From contig CAIOVE010000052.1 in NCBI GenBank assembly GCA_903861645.1, positions 1-64,000 of the forward strand: 64,000 bases of DNA. The letters are read 5' to 3'. Of this stretch, positions 41,587 through 59,562 are shown piece by piece. The DNA comes from an uncultured Hyphomicrobiales bacterium. Its GTDB lineage: Bacteria > Pseudomonadota > Alphaproteobacteria > Rhizobiales > Beijerinckiaceae. A program made the position numbers and the translations under genes. The first letter of the stretch is position 1. Each line of letters begins with the position of its first letter. Under the pieces are notes generated by a model. It worked only from the letters and a program-made list of their open reading frames with translations, was not told the origin of the DNA and made no database searches.

Positions 41587-42441
41587 TCAGCGCGCCAGCG
41601 AAGGGTAAAGCCGCTCCGCCGTGCGACGGAAAATCCAGTCCCGTTCTTCCGCCGTCAGGAACGCCAGCGCCCGCTTGCTCTCGGAGACAATTTCGGAAAG
41701 CGACGCGCCCGACGTCGGGAAGTTCGAGCCCCAGGCGATGCGCGACGCGCCGAAAACGTCGACGACCTTGCGGAAAAAGGGCTCGAACGGGCCGCCGCCC
41801 TCCGCGATCATACGGACGTTGCGAATGGTCGCCTTGAGGTAAAGGTTGGGGTAGGCCGCCAGATCGAACAAGGACTGGGCCGCCGCGTAGGGCGCGCCAT
41901 CGCGCGCGTCGGGCGAGCCCAGATGATCGAGAATGATGGTCGCGTCGGGGAAGCGCGCGAGCAGCACGCGCAATTGATCCACCGCCTTCATGTGCATCTG
42001 CACGCAGACGGGAATGCGCAGATCCCGCGCGCGCTCCCACGCGGGGAACGTGCGCGGATCGTCAAGCCAGCCAGCCTGTTCGGGCATGGTGCTGCCGGTC
42101 GTGAAAAGGCGCAGGCCGGACAAGCCCTTGTCCACCCATTCGGAAACGCGCTCCGGCGCGTCCTTTCGCAGCACGTCGACGGAAAATACACCGGCGAAAC
42201 GGTCGGGATGGGCGCGCACGGCGTCAACAACCAGCGAATTGTCGTAGCCGTAGCACGTGGAGGCGTGCACGAGCGCGCAGCGCGCGACGCCGGCCTCGTC
42301 CATCGCCTCGATCATCCGCTCCGGCGTCACCGGTCGATCACGCGCCCAGTCCGACAGGATGCCGCCAAGCGGCGACCGCGGATAGCGCGCTTCGTCCGGC
42401 GAAATGACGTGCGGATGGATATCAATAATGGTGTCCGCCAT
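41587..42441 (-). CDS. Amidohydrolase-family protein (TIM-barrel, 2-pyrone-4,6-dicarboxylate-lactonase-like group)
   Basis: MADTIIDIHPHVISPDEARYP; ATIILDHLGSPD; RIAWGSNFPTSGASLSEIV. Confidence 0.9.
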   Translation of the reverse strand: MADTIIDIHPHVISPDEARYPRSPLGGILSDWARDRPVTPERMIEAMDEAGVARCALVHASTCYGYDNSLVVDAVRAHPDRFAGVFSVDVLRKDAPERVSEWVDKGLSGLRLFTTGSTMPEQAGWLDDPRTFPAWERARDLRIPVCVQMHMKAVDQLRVLLARFPDATIILDHLGSPDARDGAPYAAAQSLFDLAAYPNLYLKATIRNVRMIAEGGGPFEPFFRKVVDVFGASRIAWGSNFPTSGASLSEIVSESKRALAFLTAEERDWIFRRTAERLYPSLAR

Positions 42442-42659
42442 GCGTGGCACGCTCCCGGAAATCTAAATCCACCGCCGCGATCAAGCATATCGGCTGTTAT
42501 TGCCATACATGCGGCGACCGGTCATTTCAATCGACATGCCCGACGCGGGCGACCGCGCGCGGCGGGGTGCAAGTGGCGGCGGTCGCTGATAATGTTTCGC
42601 CACAATCAATGATCGCGGCGCGCGCGGTGGCGCGTCGCCTCTTTTCGAAGCGAGGAAAC

Positions 42660-49589: not shown

Positions 49590-51359
49590 TCACGCCCTGA
49601 CGAGCGCGCCCGGGTTTTTCAGATACTGGTTTTTCAGCGCGTCGGCGATCCAGTAGGCGAGCGCGCCGACCGGACCCGTCGGATTCTTGCCCGCGTTCTG
49701 CGGAAAGACGCAGGCGCCGGTGACGAACACGTTCGGCACGTCCCAAACCTGACAATAGCGGTTCAAGGCGCTGGTGCGCGGGTCGGTTCCCATCACCGCG
49801 CCGCCGGTATTGTGCGTGCTCTGATAGGGCACGATGGAATAGGGCACGGGATTGGTGCGCGCCTCGACCTTGCGCGCGCCCATTTCCTTGCCGATGGCGG
49901 CGCAGACATCCGCCAGCGCCTTCATCTGCTTCTGCTCGTTGTCGAGGAAGTCGAAGGTCATGCGCATCAGCGGCCGTCCGTAGATGTCGCGATAGGTCGG
50001 ATCGAGATCGAGATAGTTGCTCCGGTAGGCCATGTTGGAGCCCTGATTGGAAACGCCGGCCGCGTGCGGGTAATTGGCGGCGGTGGCCTTCTTCCACTCA
50101 AGTCCCCAGCGGGGCGTTCCCGCCGGCACGGGGCGCGACTGGATGGGCCGACCACCGGACGTCGACGCGCCGATGCCGCCGCCGCCGATATAGCCAGCCT
50201 TGGCGAAATCGTAATTGCCGGCGTTGAAATCGTCGATGTTCACGCCCAGCGCGCCCGCGCCCATGAAGGAGTTGATGTAGGTCTTCTCGTCGAAGAACAG
50301 GGTCGCGCCGCTGGAGGCCTGATAGGCGTAGTTGCGGCCGACGACGCCCGTGTTGGTGACGGGATCATAGGGCTTGCCGATGCCCGACCAGAGCATCAAC
50401 GCGACATTGCCCAGCGCATAGGCGCTGAGGACGACGAGATCGGCGGGCTGGATGAACTCGCGCCCGCGCGCGTCGACATAAAGGACACCGGTCGCCTTCT
50501 TGCCGGTGGAGTCGAGCAGCACCTTCATGACGTTGGCGTTGGTGCGCAGCTCGAAATTCGGATTGCGCGCGGCGATCGGCATGACCGTGAAATGCGGGCT
50601 CGCCTTGGCGTTGGCCTCGCAACCGAACCGTTCGCAGAATCCGCAGTAATGACACTGACCGAACGCGACGCCATCGGGATTCGTGTAAGGCTGGGAGGAA
50701 TTGGCCGCCGGCGAGGGAAAGGGATGATAGCCGAGATTGCGCGCGGCCTTCTCGAACATCACGCCGGTTTGCGTCTGCTTCAACGGCGGATTCGGATATT
50801 CGGACTTGCGCGGCCCCTCGAACACGTTGCCGCCGTCGATTTTCTGGCCGTTGAGATTGCCCGCCTTGCCCGACACGCCGCAGGTCTTCTCGAACCTGTC
50901 GTAATAGGGCTCCAGCTCATCGTAACCGATGCCCCAGTCCTGAAGGTTCATCCCCTCGGGAATGATCTTCTCGCCATAGCGCTCGACGGTCTGCTTGCGG
51001 GCTTCCTGATCCCACGGCGTCCAGCGCCACGTGACGCCGTTCCAGTGCACGCCGGCGCCGCCGACGCCCTCGCCCGGCAGGAACGAGCCAAGCTGACGCA
51101 TGGGCAGCGCCGTCTGCGACGACTTGTTGCGGAAGGTCAGGGTCTCGCGCGACACGTCCTGCATCAGGTCGTGACGCACGGCGTAGCGCAGTTCATCGTC
51201 CTTGTGCGGCTCAAGGAAATCGGGGTTGGTGTCGCGCGGGCCGCCGCGCTCCAGCGCCAGGATTTTCAGCCCGGTGGACGCCAGTTCCTTGGCGATGATG
51301 CCGCCGGTCCAGCCGTAGCCAACCAGCAGGATATCGACGGGCTTGAGTTGGGTAGCCAT
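49590..51359 (-). CDS. GMC-family FAD-dependent oxidoreductase
   Basis: VDILLVGYGWTGGIIAKELASTGLKILALERGG; LPGEGVGGAGVHWNGVTWRWTPWD; THNTGGAVMGTDPRTSALN; C-rich CHYCGFCERFGC. Confidence 0.92.
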   Translation of the reverse strand: MATQLKPVDILLVGYGWTGGIIAKELASTGLKILALERGGPRDTNPDFLEPHKDDELRYAVRHDLMQDVSRETLTFRNKSSQTALPMRQLGSFLPGEGVGGAGVHWNGVTWRWTPWDQEARKQTVERYGEKIIPEGMNLQDWGIGYDELEPYYDRFEKTCGVSGKAGNLNGQKIDGGNVFEGPRKSEYPNPPLKQTQTGVMFEKAARNLGYHPFPSPAANSSQPYTNPDGVAFGQCHYCGFCERFGCEANAKASPHFTVMPIAARNPNFELRTNANVMKVLLDSTGKKATGVLYVDARGREFIQPADLVVLSAYALGNVALMLWSGIGKPYDPVTNTGVVGRNYAYQASSGATLFFDEKTYINSFMGAGALGVNIDDFNAGNYDFAKAGYIGGGGIGASTSGGRPIQSRPVPAGTPRWGLEWKKATAANYPHAAGVSNQGSNMAYRSNYLDLDPTYRDIYGRPLMRMTFDFLDNEQKQMKALADVCAAIGKEMGARKVEARTNPVPYSIVPYQSTHNTGGAVMGTDPRTSALNRYCQVWDVPNVFVTGACVFPQNAGKNPTGPVGALAYWIADALKNQYLKNPGALVRA

Positions 51360-51418
51360 GGGTCATCCTCCCCCGGCGGCGTTCGCGCGGCGCGCCGGCT
51401 TATTGTTGTCGGAAATTA

Positions 51419-52183
51419 TCAGGCGAAGTCCTGAATCGACTGGGTTTCGCCCGTGTAGGGCTTGTTGCGGAATTCCTCGATCATGTTGACGTACATGGCG
51501 GGAACGCCGGGAAAGCCGATCATCTTCCAGGCGGCCTTGTCCTTGTTGCCGCCGTAGATCGGGTCGCCGAAATAGCCTTCCATGGTCAGCGCGAGAAACT
51601 GATTGAACCAGACCGGGCCGGGAACATGCGCCAGTTGCGCCTTGCCTTGCTCCACTTCCGTCAGGACGGCGGCGCGCGTCGTGGCGTCGAGATCGCGCAG
51701 GCCCTTCTTGCGCGTCGCCATCGCGTAGGCGTCGACGTCGGCGATGCCGATGCGGATGAGGTCCGCCGGGGCGAGCGGCAACTGGTAGCCCTGCTGGGGC
51801 GTGCCCTCGGCGAAGGGCCCCTGCATGTAGAGCCGCGCGCCGCGCCCGAAGGCGCCGCCGAGCTGGCGATCCATGTAGGTGGCGCAGCCGGCTTCCGAGC
51901 CGCCGGGGCCGGTGGGATCGGGCGGGACCAACGTGTCGAGCGCGGCCTTCACGAAGGAGACCTCGTCGGGATTGAAAAACACGAAGCCGTCGAGCGCGCT
52001 CCGGGCGGCGCCCGCCGACGCGGGCGTGGGCATGGCGTGATCATGGCCGGCGTGTTCGCCGGCGGCGGGCGGGGACCCCTGCGCCATGGCGGTCGACGTG
52101 GCCGATACGCCGGCGGCCGCGCCCGTCGCGCCGACAACCTTCAGGAATCCGCGCCTGTCAACGCGATGGTCTTCGCCGCTCAT
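51419..52183 (-). CDS. Gluconate 2-dehydrogenase subunit 3-family protein, Tat signal
   Basis: DRRGFLKVVGATGAAAGVSAT twin-Arg leader; FVKAALDTLVPPDPTGPGGSEAGCATYMDRQLGGAFG. Confidence 0.88.
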   Translation of the reverse strand: MSGEDHRVDRRGFLKVVGATGAAAGVSATSTAMAQGSPPAAGEHAGHDHAMPTPASAGAARSALDGFVFFNPDEVSFVKAALDTLVPPDPTGPGGSEAGCATYMDRQLGGAFGRGARLYMQGPFAEGTPQQGYQLPLAPADLIRIGIADVDAYAMATRKKGLRDLDATTRAAVLTEVEQGKAQLAHVPGPVWFNQFLALTMEGYFGDPIYGGNKDKAAWKMIGFPGVPAMYVNMIEEFRNKPYTGETQSIQDFA

Positions 52184-52274
52184 GGCATCCTCCCTCTTCG
52201 ATGGCGCGCGTTCGCCGCGTCGCCCAATCATTGGGCAAAGCCTACCGCGCCGGCGCGCGCTCGGCTATAGTTTT

Positions 52275-53240
52275 GTGACATGTCTGAATCGCGCCCCGGG
52301 CGCGGGGGAGGCTTCCATCAACCTTCGGCAGCTCGCCTATTTCTCCAGGGTCGTGGAAGCCGGCAACATGACGGCGGCGGCCGAACAGCTCAAGGTCGCC
52401 CAGCCGGCGCTCGGCGTGCAAATCCGTCAGCTCGAAACCGAGCTCGGCGTCGATCTGCTGGTGCGCCATTCGCGCGGCGTGACGCCGACGCCGGCGGGCC
52501 GGCTGCTGCACGAGCGCGCGGCGCGCATCCTCGCCGATGTCGAGGCGACTCGGCGGGAGGTGACGGCGTTGGCCGCCGAAAGCGAGGACCATGTGGTGCT
52601 GGGCGTGCCGCCGAGCATCATGCTGCTGCTGGGTCCGAGCCTGCTCATCGACGCCCGCGCGGAAATGCCGGGCGTCCACCTCAGTCTCGTCGAGGAGCGC
52701 AGCGTTGTTCTGATGGAGGCGCTGGAGCGCGGCCAGATCAACATCAGCTTCGCCTGGAACGTGCCGGAGAAGCCGGATATCGAGCGCATCGCCCTGCTGG
52801 AGGAAGACCTGCTGCTGGTCACCGCGCCCGACGAGGCGGGCGGCGACGGCCCCGTGTCGCTCGCCGAGGCGCTGCGGCACGATCTGGCCATCGCCGGCGA
52901 GCGCGGCGTCATCCGCAACATCGTGCAGGGCGAGGCGCGGCGGCTCTCCCTTCCCATGAAGCTCGCCTTCGAGGTCCACTCGGTCAGCGCGATGAAGGCG
53001 CTGATCACGCGCGGCGGCGCCGCGACGATCATGCCGTTCTCGCTGGCGCCGCGGGAACTGACCACGGGCGAACTCGTGGGCCGGCGCATCGACCGCCCCT
53101 CGATCACCCGCACGCTCTACGCCGTGCGCGCCGCCCGCGCGACGCCCTTTGGCCGCGAGGCCGACATCCAGAAATTCCTCGATGGGGTCGTCGGCAAGGC
53201 GCTGGCGGCCATGGGCCCGCACGCGCGATCCTTGCGTTGA
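52275..53240 (+). CDS. LysR-family transcriptional regulator (start uncertain)
   Basis: INLRQLAYFSRVVEAGNMTAAAEQLKVAQPALGVQIRQLETELGVDLLVRHSRG HTH; nearest plausible initiator is GTG at 52275. Confidence 0.88.
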   Translation: MTCLNRAPGAGEASINLRQLAYFSRVVEAGNMTAAAEQLKVAQPALGVQIRQLETELGVDLLVRHSRGVTPTPAGRLLHERAARILADVEATRREVTALAAESEDHVVLGVPPSIMLLLGPSLLIDARAEMPGVHLSLVEERSVVLMEALERGQINISFAWNVPEKPDIERIALLEEDLLLVTAPDEAGGDGPVSLAEALRHDLAIAGERGVIRNIVQGEARRLSLPMKLAFEVHSVSAMKALITRGGAATIMPFSLAPRELTTGELVGRRIDRPSITRTLYAVRAARATPFGREADIQKFLDGVVGKALAAMGPHARSLR

Positions 53241-53395: not shown

Positions 53396-53758
53396 ATGGC
53401 CGAGCAATTCATTGGAAAAGCGTCCGAATTCAAGGACGGCGACCGTCAGATCGTCCGCATCGGCGAGGACGAAATCGGCGTTTTCAAGCACGAAGGCGCC
53501 TTCTACGCCTATAGCAACTTCTGCCTGCATCAGGGCGGTCCGGCCTGCGAGGGCCTGACGATCGCCAATGTCGAGGAGCGCCTCCGCCCCGACAAGACCT
53601 CGATGGGTCTGCACTTCACCGACCAGATGAACTTCGTCTGCCCGTGGCATGGCTACGAGTACGACATGAAGACCGGCTGCCACGTGAAGGACAAGTCCGT
53701 GAAGCTGCGCAAGTACGACGTCGTGACGAAGGGAAACGACGTCTATGTCGTCGCCTAG
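53396..53758 (+). CDS. Rieske [2Fe-2S]-domain protein with extended inter-motif region
   Basis: NFCLHQGGPACEG...NFVCPWHGYEYDMKTGCHVKDKSVKLRKYDV. Confidence 0.9.
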   Translation: MAEQFIGKASEFKDGDRQIVRIGEDEIGVFKHEGAFYAYSNFCLHQGGPACEGLTIANVEERLRPDKTSMGLHFTDQMNFVCPWHGYEYDMKTGCHVKDKSVKLRKYDVVTKGNDVYVVA

Positions 53759-54302
53759 GACCAAGAAGGCCGCCCCCAAGGCGGCCAAGCCCTCGACCAA
53801 GGCGGCCAAGCCCGCCATCAAGGCGTCTCGCGCGGCCAGCAAGCCGGCGAGCGACGAGGGCATGACGGGTCGGGACAAGGCGAATTTCATCAAGGCCATG
53901 ATGGAGGGAATCGCGCCCAAGGACGCGTCCGGCAAGCGCCCCCCCATCAAGGTCGAGGCGCCCAAAAAGGTGGAAATCCTCCGCAAGATTTCCGCCCCCA
54001 CGCCCGTCGAGCGCAAGTCGAATCCGTTGTCGGACGAGGCCTTGAAATTTGCCGCCAGGCTGGAAGAGAAATTCGCCAATGGCGATTTCGAGGCGCTGAC
54101 CCCCGAGGCGACGCAGGCGCTGATGACCGCGATCTGCAAGCTTTACAGCGCCAACGCGGAAGCGGGCAACAAATTCCCGGTGGTCAAGGATCGTTTCTCG
54201 GTCACCGGAACGGACGCGATGATTCTCTGCGGCGCGCTGCTGAAGGCGGTCGACCTGCAGGTCTTCGAACTGGGCATGTGGCAAAGCTGGTCGGGCATCT
54301 GA
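53745..54302 (+). CDS. Hypothetical protein with Lys/Ala-rich N-terminal tail
   Basis: Overlaps Rieske gene end; MSSPRTKKAAPKAAKPSTKAAKPAIKASRAASKPAS then a folded-looking C-terminal region. Confidence 0.75.
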   Translation: MSSPRTKKAAPKAAKPSTKAAKPAIKASRAASKPASDEGMTGRDKANFIKAMMEGIAPKDASGKRPPIKVEAPKKVEILRKISAPTPVERKSNPLSDEALKFAARLEEKFANGDFEALTPEATQALMTAICKLYSANAEAGNKFPVVKDRFSVTGTDAMILCGALLKAVDLQVFELGMWQSWSGI

Positions 54303-54344
54303 ACCGCCCGTCTGGCCATCACTTTAGAAAACGGAGGGATTGAC

Positions 54345-55592
54345 ATGGACCTCATAGCTGACCGCGGTCGACGCGTACAAGTCGACGAACTCAACACCAG
54401 CAAGCTGCTCGCGCACGCCGCCAAGCAGACCCGCGACAAGGGCTTCGACGACGTGCTGATCGTCGACGTCGACGCGCATCACTACGAGAACGAGAGCTTC
54501 GGCGAAATCCTGCCGTTCATGGAGAACGAGGTTCTCAAGCAGTTGGCGATCGCCTCGCGCGCCAAGGGCGGCCGCGGCAATGTCGCGCCGTCGGGCTTCG
54601 GCTATCAGGACATGGGCGGTCGCGTCACGCGCTATCCGCTGCGCTCGTCTGAAAAGACCGACGCCAACGGCCCGCACCGCGACGTGCAGCTCGGCAACCG
54701 CTGGATGGACGCCATGGGCGTCGACTATTCCTGCCTGTTCCCCACGGGCATGCTGTCGATCGGCCTGCACCCGCAGAAGGAAATGGAAGTCGAGCTGTGC
54801 TGGGCCTACAACCGGTGGGTGACGGAAAAGGCCCTGCCGGAAAGCGGCGGACGCCTGTTCACCATGCTCTGCCTGCCCTTCAGCGACGCCGACGAATGCC
54901 TGCGTCAGGTCGAGACCTTCGGTCATCGTCCGGGCGTGCGCGGCTTCATGGTGACGACCGTGCGTCCGAAGATGGGCGTGCAGGACAACGCCTACATGAA
55001 GGTCTATCGCGCCATCGAGGAACGTGGCCTCGTGCTGTCGTTCCACTCCGGCCCGTCGTGGGGCGACCACACGTTCCAGAGCTGCAACCGCTTCCTGTCG
55101 GCGCATGCGCTGGGCTTCTCCTGGTACAACATCCTGCACTGCACGAACTGGGTCGTGAACGGCATGGGCGAGCGTTTCCCCAAGCTGCCCGTGCTGTGGA
55201 TCGAGGCCGGCCTGTCGTGGATTCCCTTCGTCATGCAGCGCATCGACCATGAATACATGCTGCGTCCGTCGGAATGTCCGCTTTTGAAGAAGAAGCCATC
55301 CGACTACATGCGCGACATGTTCTATTCGGTGCAGCCGATGGAAATCCAGGACATGGGCGCGCTGGAAACGACGTTCCGCATGATGGACGCCGAGAACTCG
55401 CTGCTCTACGCCTCGGACTATCCGCACTGGGACTTCGACCTGCCCTCGACGATCTGGGATCTGCCCTTCCTCACCGACAAGGCGCGCCACAACATCCTCG
55501 GCGGCACGGCCCACCGGCTGTTCAAGCTGCCGCCGCGCAACGAGGCGCAGAAGCAGAACCTCATCAAGTACGGCAACTACCAGGAATTCTGA
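54345..55592 (+). CDS. Amidohydrolase-family (metal-dependent TIM barrel) protein
   Basis: VLIVDVDAHHYENESFGEIL, GLVLSFHSGPSWG, LLYASDYPHWDFDLPSTIWD. Confidence 0.92.
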   Translation: MDLIADRGRRVQVDELNTSKLLAHAAKQTRDKGFDDVLIVDVDAHHYENESFGEILPFMENEVLKQLAIASRAKGGRGNVAPSGFGYQDMGGRVTRYPLRSSEKTDANGPHRDVQLGNRWMDAMGVDYSCLFPTGMLSIGLHPQKEMEVELCWAYNRWVTEKALPESGGRLFTMLCLPFSDADECLRQVETFGHRPGVRGFMVTTVRPKMGVQDNAYMKVYRAIEERGLVLSFHSGPSWGDHTFQSCNRFLSAHALGFSWYNILHCTNWVVNGMGERFPKLPVLWIEAGLSWIPFVMQRIDHEYMLRPSECPLLKKKPSDYMRDMFYSVQPMEIQDMGALETTFRMMDAENSLLYASDYPHWDFDLPSTIWDLPFLTDKARHNILGGTAHRLFKLPPRNEAQKQNLIKYGNYQEF

Positions 55593-55618
55593 TTTCCGGT
55601 GGTTTGGGACTAGGATCG

Positions 55619-55645
55619 CGGGCGGCCCTCGGGTCGCCCGTTTTC
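55619..55645 (+). terminator. Intrinsic terminator after amidohydrolase gene
   Basis: CGGGCGGCC-N4-GGTCGCCCG followed by TTTTCGTT. Confidence 0.75.
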
Positions 55646-55650
55646 GTTGA

Positions 55651-56703
55651 ATGGACCTGTTCATGATCATGCGCGCGGGACGCCGCCTCGCTTTCGTCGC
55701 GATAACGCTTTGCGCGGCAACCAGCGCCCGCGCACAGGACGCCGCCGGCTTCTATCGCGGCAAGACCGTCACGATGATCATCGCGTCCGCGGCGGGCGGC
55801 GGCTTCGATGCGTATGGCCGGCTCGTCGCGCGCCACATCGGCGCGCATATTCCCGGCAATCCCAATGTCATTCCGCAGAACATGCCGGGCGCGGCGGGCG
55901 CCAACGCCGCCTATTACGTGGTGAACGTCGCGCCGAAGGAGGGAACGGTCATCGGCGCCATTCACCCCGGCAACATCATCGAGCCCGTGCTGGGCGACAA
56001 GCGCAAGGTGCGCTTTGATCCCAGCGCGTTCCAGTATATCGGCAACGCCAACACGGATGTCTACATCTGCGTGACGCGCGCCGACGCGCCCGCCAAATCG
56101 TTCGCCGAGGCGTTGAACACCGAACTCGTGATGGGCTCGGGCGGCGAGGCCGCGTCGACCAAGGACTTTCCGGTCATGTTGACGAACGTGCTCGGCGCGA
56201 AATTCAAGATGGTGCTCGGCTATTCGGGCAATCGCGAGGTGCAGCTCGCGATCGAGAAGGGCGAAATTCACGGCGAATGCGGCGCCGGCTGGTCGAGCGT
56301 GCTGTCGGCGCATCCCGACTGGTTCGCCAACAAATTCGCGCGCGTGCTTGTGCAGGAGGCCTCCGTCGGACATCCCGATCTCGACCGGATGGGCGTGCCG
56401 AAGACGGTCGATTTCGCGAAGACGCCCGAACAACGCGCCGTGCTGGATCTCGTCTACGCGCAGGAGCAATTCGGGCGCCCCTATATCATGGCGCCGGAAA
56501 CGCCGGCCGAGCGCGTGTCGACCATGCGCAAGGCTTTCATGGATACGTTCCACGATCCCGCGTTCCTCGCCGAGGCCGCGCGGATGAACCTCGATGTGTC
56601 GCCGACCTCCGGCGAGGAAACGCAGGCGCTGGTGCGCAAGGTTTTCGCGACGCCGCCCGACATCGTCGAGCGCGCGAAACAGGCGACGACGGCGCGCGAA
56701 TAA
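55651..56703 (+). CDS. Bug/TctC-type substrate-binding protein (SBP-C)
   Basis: KTVTMIIASAAGGGFDAYGRLVARHIGAHIPGNPNVIPQNMPGAAGANAAYY. Confidence 0.87.
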   Translation: MDLFMIMRAGRRLAFVAITLCAATSARAQDAAGFYRGKTVTMIIASAAGGGFDAYGRLVARHIGAHIPGNPNVIPQNMPGAAGANAAYYVVNVAPKEGTVIGAIHPGNIIEPVLGDKRKVRFDPSAFQYIGNANTDVYICVTRADAPAKSFAEALNTELVMGSGGEAASTKDFPVMLTNVLGAKFKMVLGYSGNREVQLAIEKGEIHGECGAGWSSVLSAHPDWFANKFARVLVQEASVGHPDLDRMGVPKTVDFAKTPEQRAVLDLVYAQEQFGRPYIMAPETPAERVSTMRKAFMDTFHDPAFLAEAARMNLDVSPTSGEETQALVRKVFATPPDIVERAKQATTARE

Positions 56704-56709
56704 CCGGCG

Positions 56710-57705
56710 TCAGCGCGCCAGGAATTTTTCCAGCGTCAGCGGCATCGGCGGCTTGGCGGGAGCCTTCGGCGGCGTCGCCTCGAAATGCGTGGCTTCCTCG
56801 AACCATTTGCGCTGCGCGGGCAATCCCCACGGCAGGGAGATGTTGGGATCGCCGGGATCCCAGCGCACCGGTTCGTTCTCGAGATCCATGATCTGGTAAT
56901 GCGTGTTGAACAATTCGACGCGATGACCATCGGGATCGCGGAAATAGACAAACAGCGCGTGACCGGGGCCGTGGCGGCCGGGACCACGCTCGACGTCGCG
57001 GCCAAATCCCATTTCGCCGGCGATGTCGCAGGCGCGCAGCAGATTGTGCGTTTCCGCGGCCGCGTAGGCGAAGTGATGCAGGCGCGGCCCCTCGCCATTG
57101 AAGAACACGATGTCGTGCGGGTTGCCCTTGCGTTGCAGGAACACGCCGAAGATATCGTCGCCGCCCGCGGGCGCGATATATTCGCTCGCGCGAAATCCCA
57201 TTTCCATCCAGAACTCGGTCGCGCGTCGCACGTTCGGCGACAGAATCTGGCAGTGATCGATGCGTTGCGCGCAGCCGCCCTTGTGGCTTGAAAACCTCGT
57301 GATCATGCGCGGCATCGCGTCCATGCGGGCCGTCAGTTCGATCGGCGCGCCGACGGGATCGATCAGGTGCAGCGTGCGGCCCTGATAAGGCGCGTCGACG
57401 AAACGTGGATCGCAACCCGCCGCCGCGAAGGCGTCGTGCGCGCGATCGAGATCGTCCTCGGTCATCACGCGCATGCCGACGCGTTGGCACAGGGCGTCGC
57501 CCGACGAGCGCCTCAGCACGAGACTATGATGACAGGCTTCCTCGACTCCACGCAGATAAAGAGCGTCCTTGTCCTGATCGGAAACAACCAGACCTAGCAC
57601 CTCCGTGTAGAAATGCCGGCTGGCGTCGAGATCCCGGACGGTCATCACGAAATGGCTGGTGCGCGTAATGCGGCAGGGCGGATCGAACCGCGGCTTTGGC
57701 AGCAT
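56710..57705 (-). CDS. Two-domain VOC protein, extradiol (catechol 2,3-) dioxygenase-like
   Basis: TSHFVMTVRDLDASRHFYTEVLGLVVSD; RIDHCQILSPNVRRATEFW; GPGRHGPGHALFVYFRDPDGHRVELFNTHYQ. Confidence 0.9.
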   Translation of the reverse strand: MLPKPRFDPPCRITRTSHFVMTVRDLDASRHFYTEVLGLVVSDQDKDALYLRGVEEACHHSLVLRRSSGDALCQRVGMRVMTEDDLDRAHDAFAAAGCDPRFVDAPYQGRTLHLIDPVGAPIELTARMDAMPRMITRFSSHKGGCAQRIDHCQILSPNVRRATEFWMEMGFRASEYIAPAGGDDIFGVFLQRKGNPHDIVFFNGEGPRLHHFAYAAAETHNLLRACDIAGEMGFGRDVERGPGRHGPGHALFVYFRDPDGHRVELFNTHYQIMDLENEPVRWDPGDPNISLPWGLPAQRKWFEEATHFEATPPKAPAKPPMPLTLEKFLAR

Positions 57706-57900
57706 GGACGTTCCTCGAACAGGCAACGCACCGCTTGGCGCGGGCTCGGCGGGAGTATGGCCCGCGGCGATCGGAAATGTCCATCCGCCAAGCGGAAACG
57801 GGCCGCGCAAGGTTGTCAGAATCGCCCGTGACAATTAGTGTTCCGGTTAAATCCGACGCGGTTGCAAAACGCGCGGAACGCCATGCGGGAGGAGCTGCAA

Positions 57901-59562
57901 ATGCCGAGACATTCGATTTCTGGATTGGGCGCGGGCGTGGCCCTCGCCGCCTTGTTGCTTGCGTCGCCGACATTGGCGCAAGGACTATCCGGCAAGGTTG
58001 CTTCCGAAGCCGAGCCCAAAATGGAAGGCGTGCTCGTCACCGCCAAGCGCGAGGGATCGACCATCGCCACGACGGTCGTGACCGACGCGACGGGCGCCTA
58101 CGCCTTCCCGGCCGATCGCATAGGCCCCGGCAAATATACACTGTCGATCCGCGCCATCGGCTATGTGCTCGACGGACCGAAAAGTGTCGAGGTGCCGAAC
58201 GGGCAGCCGGCGACCGCCGACATCAAGCTGTCGAAGACAAAGAACCTCGCCGCGCAACTGTCGAACGCCGAATGGCTGATGTCGATGCCCGGCACGGACA
58301 AGGAAAAACAGTTCCTCGACGCCTGCTCGGGCTGCCACACCTATCAGCGCATCGTGAACTCGACCTACGAGCCCGAGGATTTCCGCGACAACATCTTCAA
58401 GCGCATGGGTTCCTATTCGCCGGGCTCCATGCCGACGAAGCCGCAGCCGCTCCTGCCCGGCCCGCGCGGCGAGCGCCCGGCCGTCAACGAGAAGGCGGCC
58501 CCCGCCGCCGCGGAACTGCTGGCGAAGGCCAACCTCAGTCAGGGCCCCAACCGGAGCTACGAACTCAAGACCCTGCCGCGGCCGGCCGGTCGCGCGACGA
58601 AGGTGATCATCACCGAATACGACCTGCCCGCGAAGGACTGGGAGCCCCACGACGTGATCATGGATCACGAGGGCATGGTCTGGTTCTCCGATTTCGGCGA
58701 CCAGCGCATGGGCCGCATGGACCCCAAAACCGGCAAGGTCGAAACCCTCGAACTGCCCATGATGAAAACCGATGGCTCGCCCAAGGGCGGACTTGAAATC
58801 GGCGAGGCGCCGAACGGCGACATCTGGCAGTCGGGCATGTATCAGGGCGGCGTCTATCGTTGGGAGCGCGCCACCGGCAAGGTCACCGCCTATCGCATTC
58901 CCGACAAATGGCAGACGGCCTCGACGCAGGAGTCGATGGTCTCGCCGCAGCATTCGGATGTCGACGGCTATGTCTGGACGAACGATCAGCAAGACCACTC
59001 GCTGCTGCGCCTGAACGTCAAGACCGGCGAATACGAGCAGATGGGCGAAACGAAGGACGCGAACGGCAAGCCGATTCCCGGCTATGGCATGCCGACGGAC
59101 CTCAAGAACCGACCCATGCTGCATGAATTCTCGGGCACGAGGATTGGCTGGTACGATCCCGAGAAGCGCGTCGCCGAGGTCTTCACGACGCCGTTCCAGG
59201 GCTCGGCGCCGCGGCGCGGACGCGTCGACGCGGAGGGCCGCCTGTGGTTCGCCGAATATCGTGGCGGCGGCATCGGCATGTTCGACACGAAGACCAAGGA
59301 ACTCAAGGAATACAAGCTGAAGGCGCCATGGGCGACGCCCTATGACGTCGTCGCGACGAAGACCGGCGAGGTCTGGGCCGGTTCGATGGCCAACGACATG
59401 GTCAACCGGCTCGATACGAAGAGCGGCGAGGAGGTCGATTACCTCATGCCGCGGCCGACCAACATCCGGCGCGTCTTCGTCGACGAGCGCGGCTCCCGCC
59501 CGGTGTTGTGGGTCGGCTCCAATCACGGCGCCTCGGTCATCAAGGTCGAGCCGCTGGATTGA
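57901..59562 (+). CDS. Secreted fusion: CarboxypepD-regulatory-like domain + CxxCH haem motif + Vgb/virginiamycin B lyase-like beta-propeller
   Basis: Signal peptide; ATTVVTDATGAYAFPADRIGPGKYTLSIRAIGY; DACSGCHTYQRI; propeller blades VWFSDFGDQRMGRMDPKTGKVETLELP, LWFAEYRGGGIGMFDTKTKELKEYKL, VWAGSMANDMVNRLDTKSGE. Confidence 0.85.
   Translation: MPRHSISGLGAGVALAALLLASPTLAQGLSGKVASEAEPKMEGVLVTAKREGSTIATTVVTDATGAYAFPADRIGPGKYTLSIRAIGYVLDGPKSVEVPNGQPATADIKLSKTKNLAAQLSNAEWLMSMPGTDKEKQFLDACSGCHTYQRIVNSTYEPEDFRDNIFKRMGSYSPGSMPTKPQPLLPGPRGERPAVNEKAAPAAAELLAKANLSQGPNRSYELKTLPRPAGRATKVIITEYDLPAKDWEPHDVIMDHEGMVWFSDFGDQRMGRMDPKTGKVETLELPMMKTDGSPKGGLEIGEAPNGDIWQSGMYQGGVYRWERATGKVTAYRIPDKWQTASTQESMVSPQHSDVDGYVWTNDQQDHSLLRLNVKTGEYEQMGETKDANGKPIPGYGMPTDLKNRPMLHEFSGTRIGWYDPEKRVAEVFTTPFQGSAPRRGRVDAEGRLWFAEYRGGGIGMFDTKTKELKEYKLKAPWATPYDVVATKTGEVWAGSMANDMVNRLDTKSGEEVDYLMPRPTNIRRVFVDERGSRPVLWVGSNHGASVIKVEPLD

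Follow-up and report, generated by a model that had tools for sequence, protein, structure and literature searches.

Three adjoining genes in the 64,000-nucleotide stretch of DNA analysed here (hereafter, the window) likely encode the core of a multicomponent monooxygenase, in which a catalytic subunit of the amidohydrolase-related dinuclear oxygenase (ARO) class would be combined with a Rieske donor, a dedicated cofactor-less partner, here called K, and a reductase acting in trans. Specifically, the TIM-barrel ARO would hold a dinuclear site of the Fe/Fe or Mn/Fe type; judging from the homology to AibH1H2 and SfbO, a reductase whose gene lies outside the operon, in another part of the genome, would reduce the Rieske cluster, which would then pass electrons to the dinuclear site, and the reduced site could activate O2 and hydroxylate a C-H bond of the substrate. 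K would most likely bind the ARO, either as an effector that tunes electron transfer and substrate access, as MmoB and TmoD serve diiron hydroxylases, or as a structural or docking subunit in place of AibH1. The analysis itself shows the linkage and co-occurrence of the genes, the ligand residues of the ARO and its predicted fold; the metal content, the O2 chemistry, the flow of electrons, the role of K and the substrate are inferred. AROs are a young class, with few members of known activity; if the proposed scenario is true, many genes currently labeled "amidohydrolase family protein" and "hypothetical protein" would turn out to belong to a hydroxylase system.

Gene layout and conserved linkage

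The first-pass annotation of this DNA described three tightly packed genes, the first two overlapping, that end in a terminator, and the exact open reading frame coordinates bear this out (Table 1): the Rieske, K and PF04909 genes form a single unit on one strand, closed by a stem-loop that makes a good terminator. A survey of the locus by open reading frames and Pfam profiles also upheld the remark that neither a ring-hydroxylating oxygenase alpha subunit nor a reductase gene adjoins the trio. Close relatives of the LysR-type regulator encoded upstream adjoin three of the related loci described below (L012, L013 and L077).

Table 1. Features of the operon and its flanks in the window
Feature	Positions	Strand	Basis
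LysR-type regulator upstream, candidate operon regulator	52359..53240	+	NCBIfam LysR-family matches
Rieske [2Fe-2S] ferredoxin, AibG-like electron donor, 120 aa	53396..53758	+	Pfam PF00355, E=2.9e-13
Overlap of the end of the Rieske gene with the start of K, 14 nt	53745..53758	+	sequence
Middle protein K, 185 aa, Lys/Ala-rich N-terminal tail and conserved C-terminal helical domain	53745..54302	+	alignment of 38; AlphaFold2
PF04909 amidohydrolase-related dinuclear oxygenase (ARO), predicted catalytic subunit, 415 aa	54345..55592	+	Pfam Amidohydro_2, E=4.3e-24
Intrinsic terminator-like stem-loop closing the operon	55618..55641	+	10-bp stem, 8 G-C pairs, T-rich tail
TctC/Bug-like solute-binding protein just past the terminator, candidate carboxylate uptake	55651..56703	+	weak PF03401, E=6.6e-05, below cut-off
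HpaD/catechol 2,3-dioxygenase-like extradiol ring-cleavage enzyme	56710..57834	-	TIGR02295, 318.4 bits vs cut-off 321.4

When GTDB genomes were scanned with the PF04909 protein of the window, 80 related loci (50-95% identity) were retrieved. A Rieske relative accompanies the ARO gene in 62 of them, nearly always as its immediate neighbor, and 42 of these 62 operons, from Pseudomonadota and one actinomycete, also contain a K relative; hence, the arrangement of the trio is not due to chance, and the neighborhood search that the first-pass annotation had proposed as a check found the linkage conserved. The same association is seen in genomes that were not selected for the system. In a sample drawn from the order, K, the Rieske protein (threshold E<=1e-20) and the ARO (threshold E<=1e-60) occur together in three of 101 genomes, whereas the other 98 have none of them, and in a partly overlapping sample drawn from the phylum, K and the ARO coincide in the same three of 299 genomes; every K gene in the two samples adjoins an ARO gene. 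In 32 further genomes, 52 of the 56 K genes lie no more than 1.5 kb from an ARO gene.

The remaining 18 ARO relatives (L015, L016, L020, L021, L032, L038-L044, L046, L047, L049, L052, L069 and L080) lack a Rieske gene in the part of the locus examined; they may draw on a shared Rieske protein whose gene lies elsewhere.

The PF04909 protein as a probable dinuclear oxygenase

The metal site of AibH2 is formed by D25, H27, H211, E265, D337 and H340, and an acidic residue at position 342 (D342, in the second sphere) is retained only in binuclear members of the family (Hibi 2021, PMC7782822). This set of seven residues maps to D43, H45, H234, E287, D358, H361 and the second-sphere D363 of the window's protein, all of which are invariant in an alignment of 33 rows that takes in distant Rieske-linked paralogues from the source genome. 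As a control, three PF04909 paralogues that have no Rieske link, one of them encoded in the window at 41587-42450, lack the second-site set, with other residues at the position of D43 and histidine at that of E287. The full set is present in the Rieske-linked PF04909 proteins of a haloarchaeon and of Aminobacter; the Rhodococcus counterpart carries asparagine in place of D363. Thus, the window's protein combines the fold, the three histidine and three carboxylate ligands, the nearby acid and a Rieske gene within three genes (two genes upstream, in this case) that characterize AROs.

Structural comparisons lead in the same direction. In a sequence search of the PDB, 8SM7, 8SM9, 8SM6 (SfbO), AibH2 and 8SM8 rank first, and the AlphaFold2 model of the protein (pLDDT 86) yields 8SM7, 8SM6, 8SM8 and AibH2 as the best Foldseek matches (for 8SM7, E=3.4e-21 and TM 0.69/0.82), in both cases ahead of decarboxylases. 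The characterized AROs are distant relatives, with 22-26% identity over the fold alignment.

The first-pass annotation had described the Rieske partner as hydrolase/decarboxylase-like, and one could indeed envisage an ordinary metal-dependent enzyme of the ACMSD or gamma-resorcylate decarboxylase type that functions in an aromatic pathway, with the Rieske protein a bystander or a donor to another oxygenase. Most PF04909 members are such enzymes, and decarboxylases do appear among the PDB matches; the AROs, however, come first both by sequence and by fold, the mononuclear signature of the ACMSD type (an HxH-type first strand and no second-site histidine or acid) is replaced by the complete dinuclear one (D-x-H, E and the H/D second-site residues), and the Rieske gene has been retained with the PF04909 gene in the majority of the relatives counted above. 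An ordinary hydrolase or decarboxylase is therefore very unlikely. Given the complete set of dinuclear-site residues and its absence from the paralogues that have no Rieske link, the protein is very probably an ARO-class monooxygenase fed by the Rieske protein.

The Rieske ferredoxin and its loop

The Rieske ligands C43, H45, C82 and H85 are invariant in an alignment of 20 sequences. The spacing of 36 residues between the CLH and CPWH motifs, to which the first-pass annotation had drawn attention, was reproduced; it is, however, not the insertion oddity that it was taken for. The loop measures 36 or 37 residues in all 65 Rieske proteins encoded beside window-type AROs. Its length is 37 in the ARO operon of a haloarchaeon, and AibG-like operons of the source genome and of Rhodococcus have loops of 32; in two other Rieske sequences of the source genome (L007 and L008), by comparison, it is 16 residues long. 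The long loop is a mark of ferredoxins that serve AROs, and it probably shapes the docking to the oxygenase. The ferredoxins of ring-hydroxylating dioxygenases differ from the window's protein in having a short loop and an adjoining alpha subunit gene.

As to the reductase, the source genome contains no match to Reductase_C (PF14759) and encodes six PF00175 reductase domains, all away from the operon. An Aminobacter "FAD-dependent oxidoreductase" gene that follows the Rieske gene was considered as the missing ferredoxin reductase and dismissed, its product being an aromatic hydroxylase (FAD_binding_3).

Protein K

The middle gene encodes what the first-pass annotation called an unknown basic protein. 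The first half of this description stands: profile searches with the K family against Pfam, NCBIfam and the PDB gave chance-level matches at most, and Foldseek returned a single match to the K model, with E=2.6. The second half applies to a variable N-terminal tail only. In an alignment of 38 sequences, the conserved part of K comprises the C-terminal ~75 residues and ends in a FELGMWQSWTG-like motif; within the domain (about residues 94-185), T156, F174 and L176 are invariant and E175, G177, W179 and Q180 nearly so. K has no conserved cysteine or histidine suited to binding a cofactor. AlphaFold2 places helices at 94-111, 120-139, 155-168 and 176-182; the pLDDT averages 73 and reaches about 90 in the first two helices of the conserved part. 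Since the model is only partly confident, we do not claim a new fold. The Lys/Ala-rich N-terminus is confined to the clade of the window's K, and the K proteins of Amycolatopsis, Herminiimonas and Rhodospirillales have short, often acidic N-termini. The tail was therefore rejected as an essential feature of K: it is a lineage-specific extension that is absent from most of the deep-branching members.

The distribution of K bears on its function. K is missing from 20 of the 62 Rieske-ARO operons and was not found at the haloarchaeal and Rhodococcus ARO loci inspected, so it is not required by all AROs. Among the genomes with a K-less locus, 30 of 32 encode K elsewhere, which means that K could act in trans; the same genomes also carry further ARO genes, next to which 52 of the 56 K genes lie. 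On the ARO tree, K is found on deep branches (Actinomycetota, Oxalobacteraceae and several Alphaproteobacteria), whereas one large clade of Rieske-ARO pairs and some scattered tips lack it, a pattern that fits an old component that was lost or is provided in trans. Of the 40 operons in which K lies between the other two genes, 36 have a Rieske/K overlap of precisely 14 nt, although the choice of the K start nearest to the Rieske stop biases the count toward such an overlap; the constant overlap suggests translational coupling of K to ferredoxin synthesis.

The position of K, nearly always directly after the Rieske gene that it overlaps, could be taken to mean that K is an additional docking or electron-transfer module of the Rieske protein rather than a partner of the oxygenase. 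We consider this distinctly unlikely: three loci (L056, L058 and L084) have K 3' of the ARO gene, in Aminobacter K separates the ARO and Rieske genes, and K has no conserved cofactor-binding residues. Somewhat less improbable, although still unlikely, is an ARO system such as we propose in which K is a dedicated maturation factor, involved in metal loading or acting as a folding chaperone, or else an autoregulator that binds nucleic acids through its Lys/Ala tail. A helical, cofactor-less protein that can be encoded in trans where the ARO operon lacks it would suit such roles, and the tail is akin to the basic tails of histone H1-like proteins; on the other hand, the fixed overlap suggests synthesis coupled to that of the ferredoxin, and, with most deep-branching K proteins devoid of the basic tail, binding of nucleic acids cannot be the core role of K.

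A more far-reaching possibility, somewhat less likely than not, is that K is the founder of a new family and a dedicated effector or coupling subunit of a distinct ARO subfamily, whereby TIM-barrel dinuclear oxygenases would have reached independently the four-part design known from toluene 4-monooxygenase. Both the K family and the three-gene ARO subfamily appear to be new. A literature search limited to freely readable main texts yielded no account of K and, aside from the ARO papers, nothing relevant on operons of this kind, so that priority for K is unproven. As this widespread ARO subfamily carries an additional component in tight linkage, it offers a direct test of the need for an effector, and K may explain why AROs that were assayed by themselves show weak activity in vitro.

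Relation to known oxygenase systems

Toluene 4-monooxygenase consists of a hydroxylase, a Rieske ferredoxin, a small cofactor-less effector and a reductase. The likeness to the window's system lies in the proposed logic of the components, and no homology is claimed: the hydroxylase of toluene 4-monooxygenase is a four-helix-bundle diiron protein, whereas the window's ARO is a TIM barrel. With respect to the Rieske protein and the reductase, this parallel has already been drawn (PMC7782822).

That a Rieske protein serves an amidohydrolase-family enzyme, as the first-pass annotation had surmised, is most likely correct for the window; the novelty it saw in this is not, because the pairing of Rieske proteins with PF04909 oxygenases has been published for AibG and AibH1H2 and in the ARO survey (Hibi 2021, PMC7782822; Powell 2023, PMC10401708; Liu 2024, PMC10811679), the latter resting on the Rieske-PF04909 neighborhood. 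The alpha-aminoisobutyrate monooxygenase of Rhodococcus wratislaviensis, AibH1H2-AibG-AibF (PMC7782822, PMC10401708), has the same dinuclear residues in its PF04909 subunit, and its cluster, like the window's, includes a small Rieske ferredoxin and a LysR regulator. However, two PF04909 proteins make up the AibH1H2 heterotetramer, and the cluster encodes the reductase AibF, whereas the window's operon has neither tandem PF04909 genes nor an aibF-type reductase gene, but a single PF04909 gene and K. The presence of only one PF04909 gene mildly favors an AibH1-type structural role for K. The source genome, with its 35 PF04909 matches, also contains three loci (C17:18105-20577, C32:71936-74447 and C32:77473-79963) with the gene order AibH1-AibH2-AibG, a Rieske gene coming after two tandem PF04909 genes.

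SfbO and the further AROs described by Liu et al. 2024 (PMC10811679; PDB 8SM6-8SM9) are, as in the window, Rieske-linked PF04909 oxygenases; a third small component is absent from the main text of that paper, whereas the window's operon has K. PtmU3 and LynB7 (PMC7782822, PMC10127204), amidohydrolase-superfamily diiron oxygenases of natural-product biosynthesis, share with the window's ARO the ligand pattern D-x-H ... H ... E ... D-x-x-H-x-(D/E); in the LynB7 paper (PMC10127204), a Rieske partner goes unmentioned.

Substrate and neighboring genes

The conserved Arg-rich stretch of the ARO (R93, R96, R100 and R112 in the 33-row alignment) would suit an anionic substrate. TctC/TTT transporter genes stand beside 25-30 of the related loci, and relatives of the downstream TctC/Bug-like protein are found in 30; TctC genes are plentiful in such genomes. 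HpaD-like proteins are encoded beside seven related loci, and the HpaD-like gene of the window lies 1.1 kb downstream of the operon on the opposite strand. Relatives of the ARO are further accompanied by genes for extradiol dioxygenases, p-hydroxycinnamoyl-CoA hydratase/lyase, UbiD and a LigXa-type oxygenase, and the Aminobacter ARO, K and Rieske genes are located near hpaD, hpaH, hpaI and a 4-hydroxybenzoate 3-monooxygenase gene. With moderate confidence, we propose that the substrate is an aromatic or other organic acid, an aromatic acid being the best guess.

The trio has also been found on plasmids. In Phaeobacter and Salipiger (L094 and L095), it occupies nearly alike neighborhoods with Mu-type, TniB and TniQ transposase genes, and this likeness between different roseobacter genera points to recent transfer. 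On a plasmid of Mesorhizobium sp. L-2-11 (L100), the trio adjoins genes for purH, SAICAR synthase and beta-ribofuranosylaminobenzene 5'-phosphate synthase, surroundings that are odd for a catabolic oxygenase.

Farther from the operon, the window encodes, at 57838-59562, a probably secreted, cytochrome-like protein that unites a carboxypeptidase-regulatory-like domain, a CSGCH heme-c motif and a virginiamycin-B-lyase-like propeller. On the other flank, at 49590-52231 on the reverse strand, are the genes for a GMC oxidoreductase and a TAT-exported gluconate-2-dehydrogenase subunit 3. Relatives of both adjoin the ARO operons L009 and L075; in the Mesorhizobium plasmid, a GMC gene comes next after the operon.
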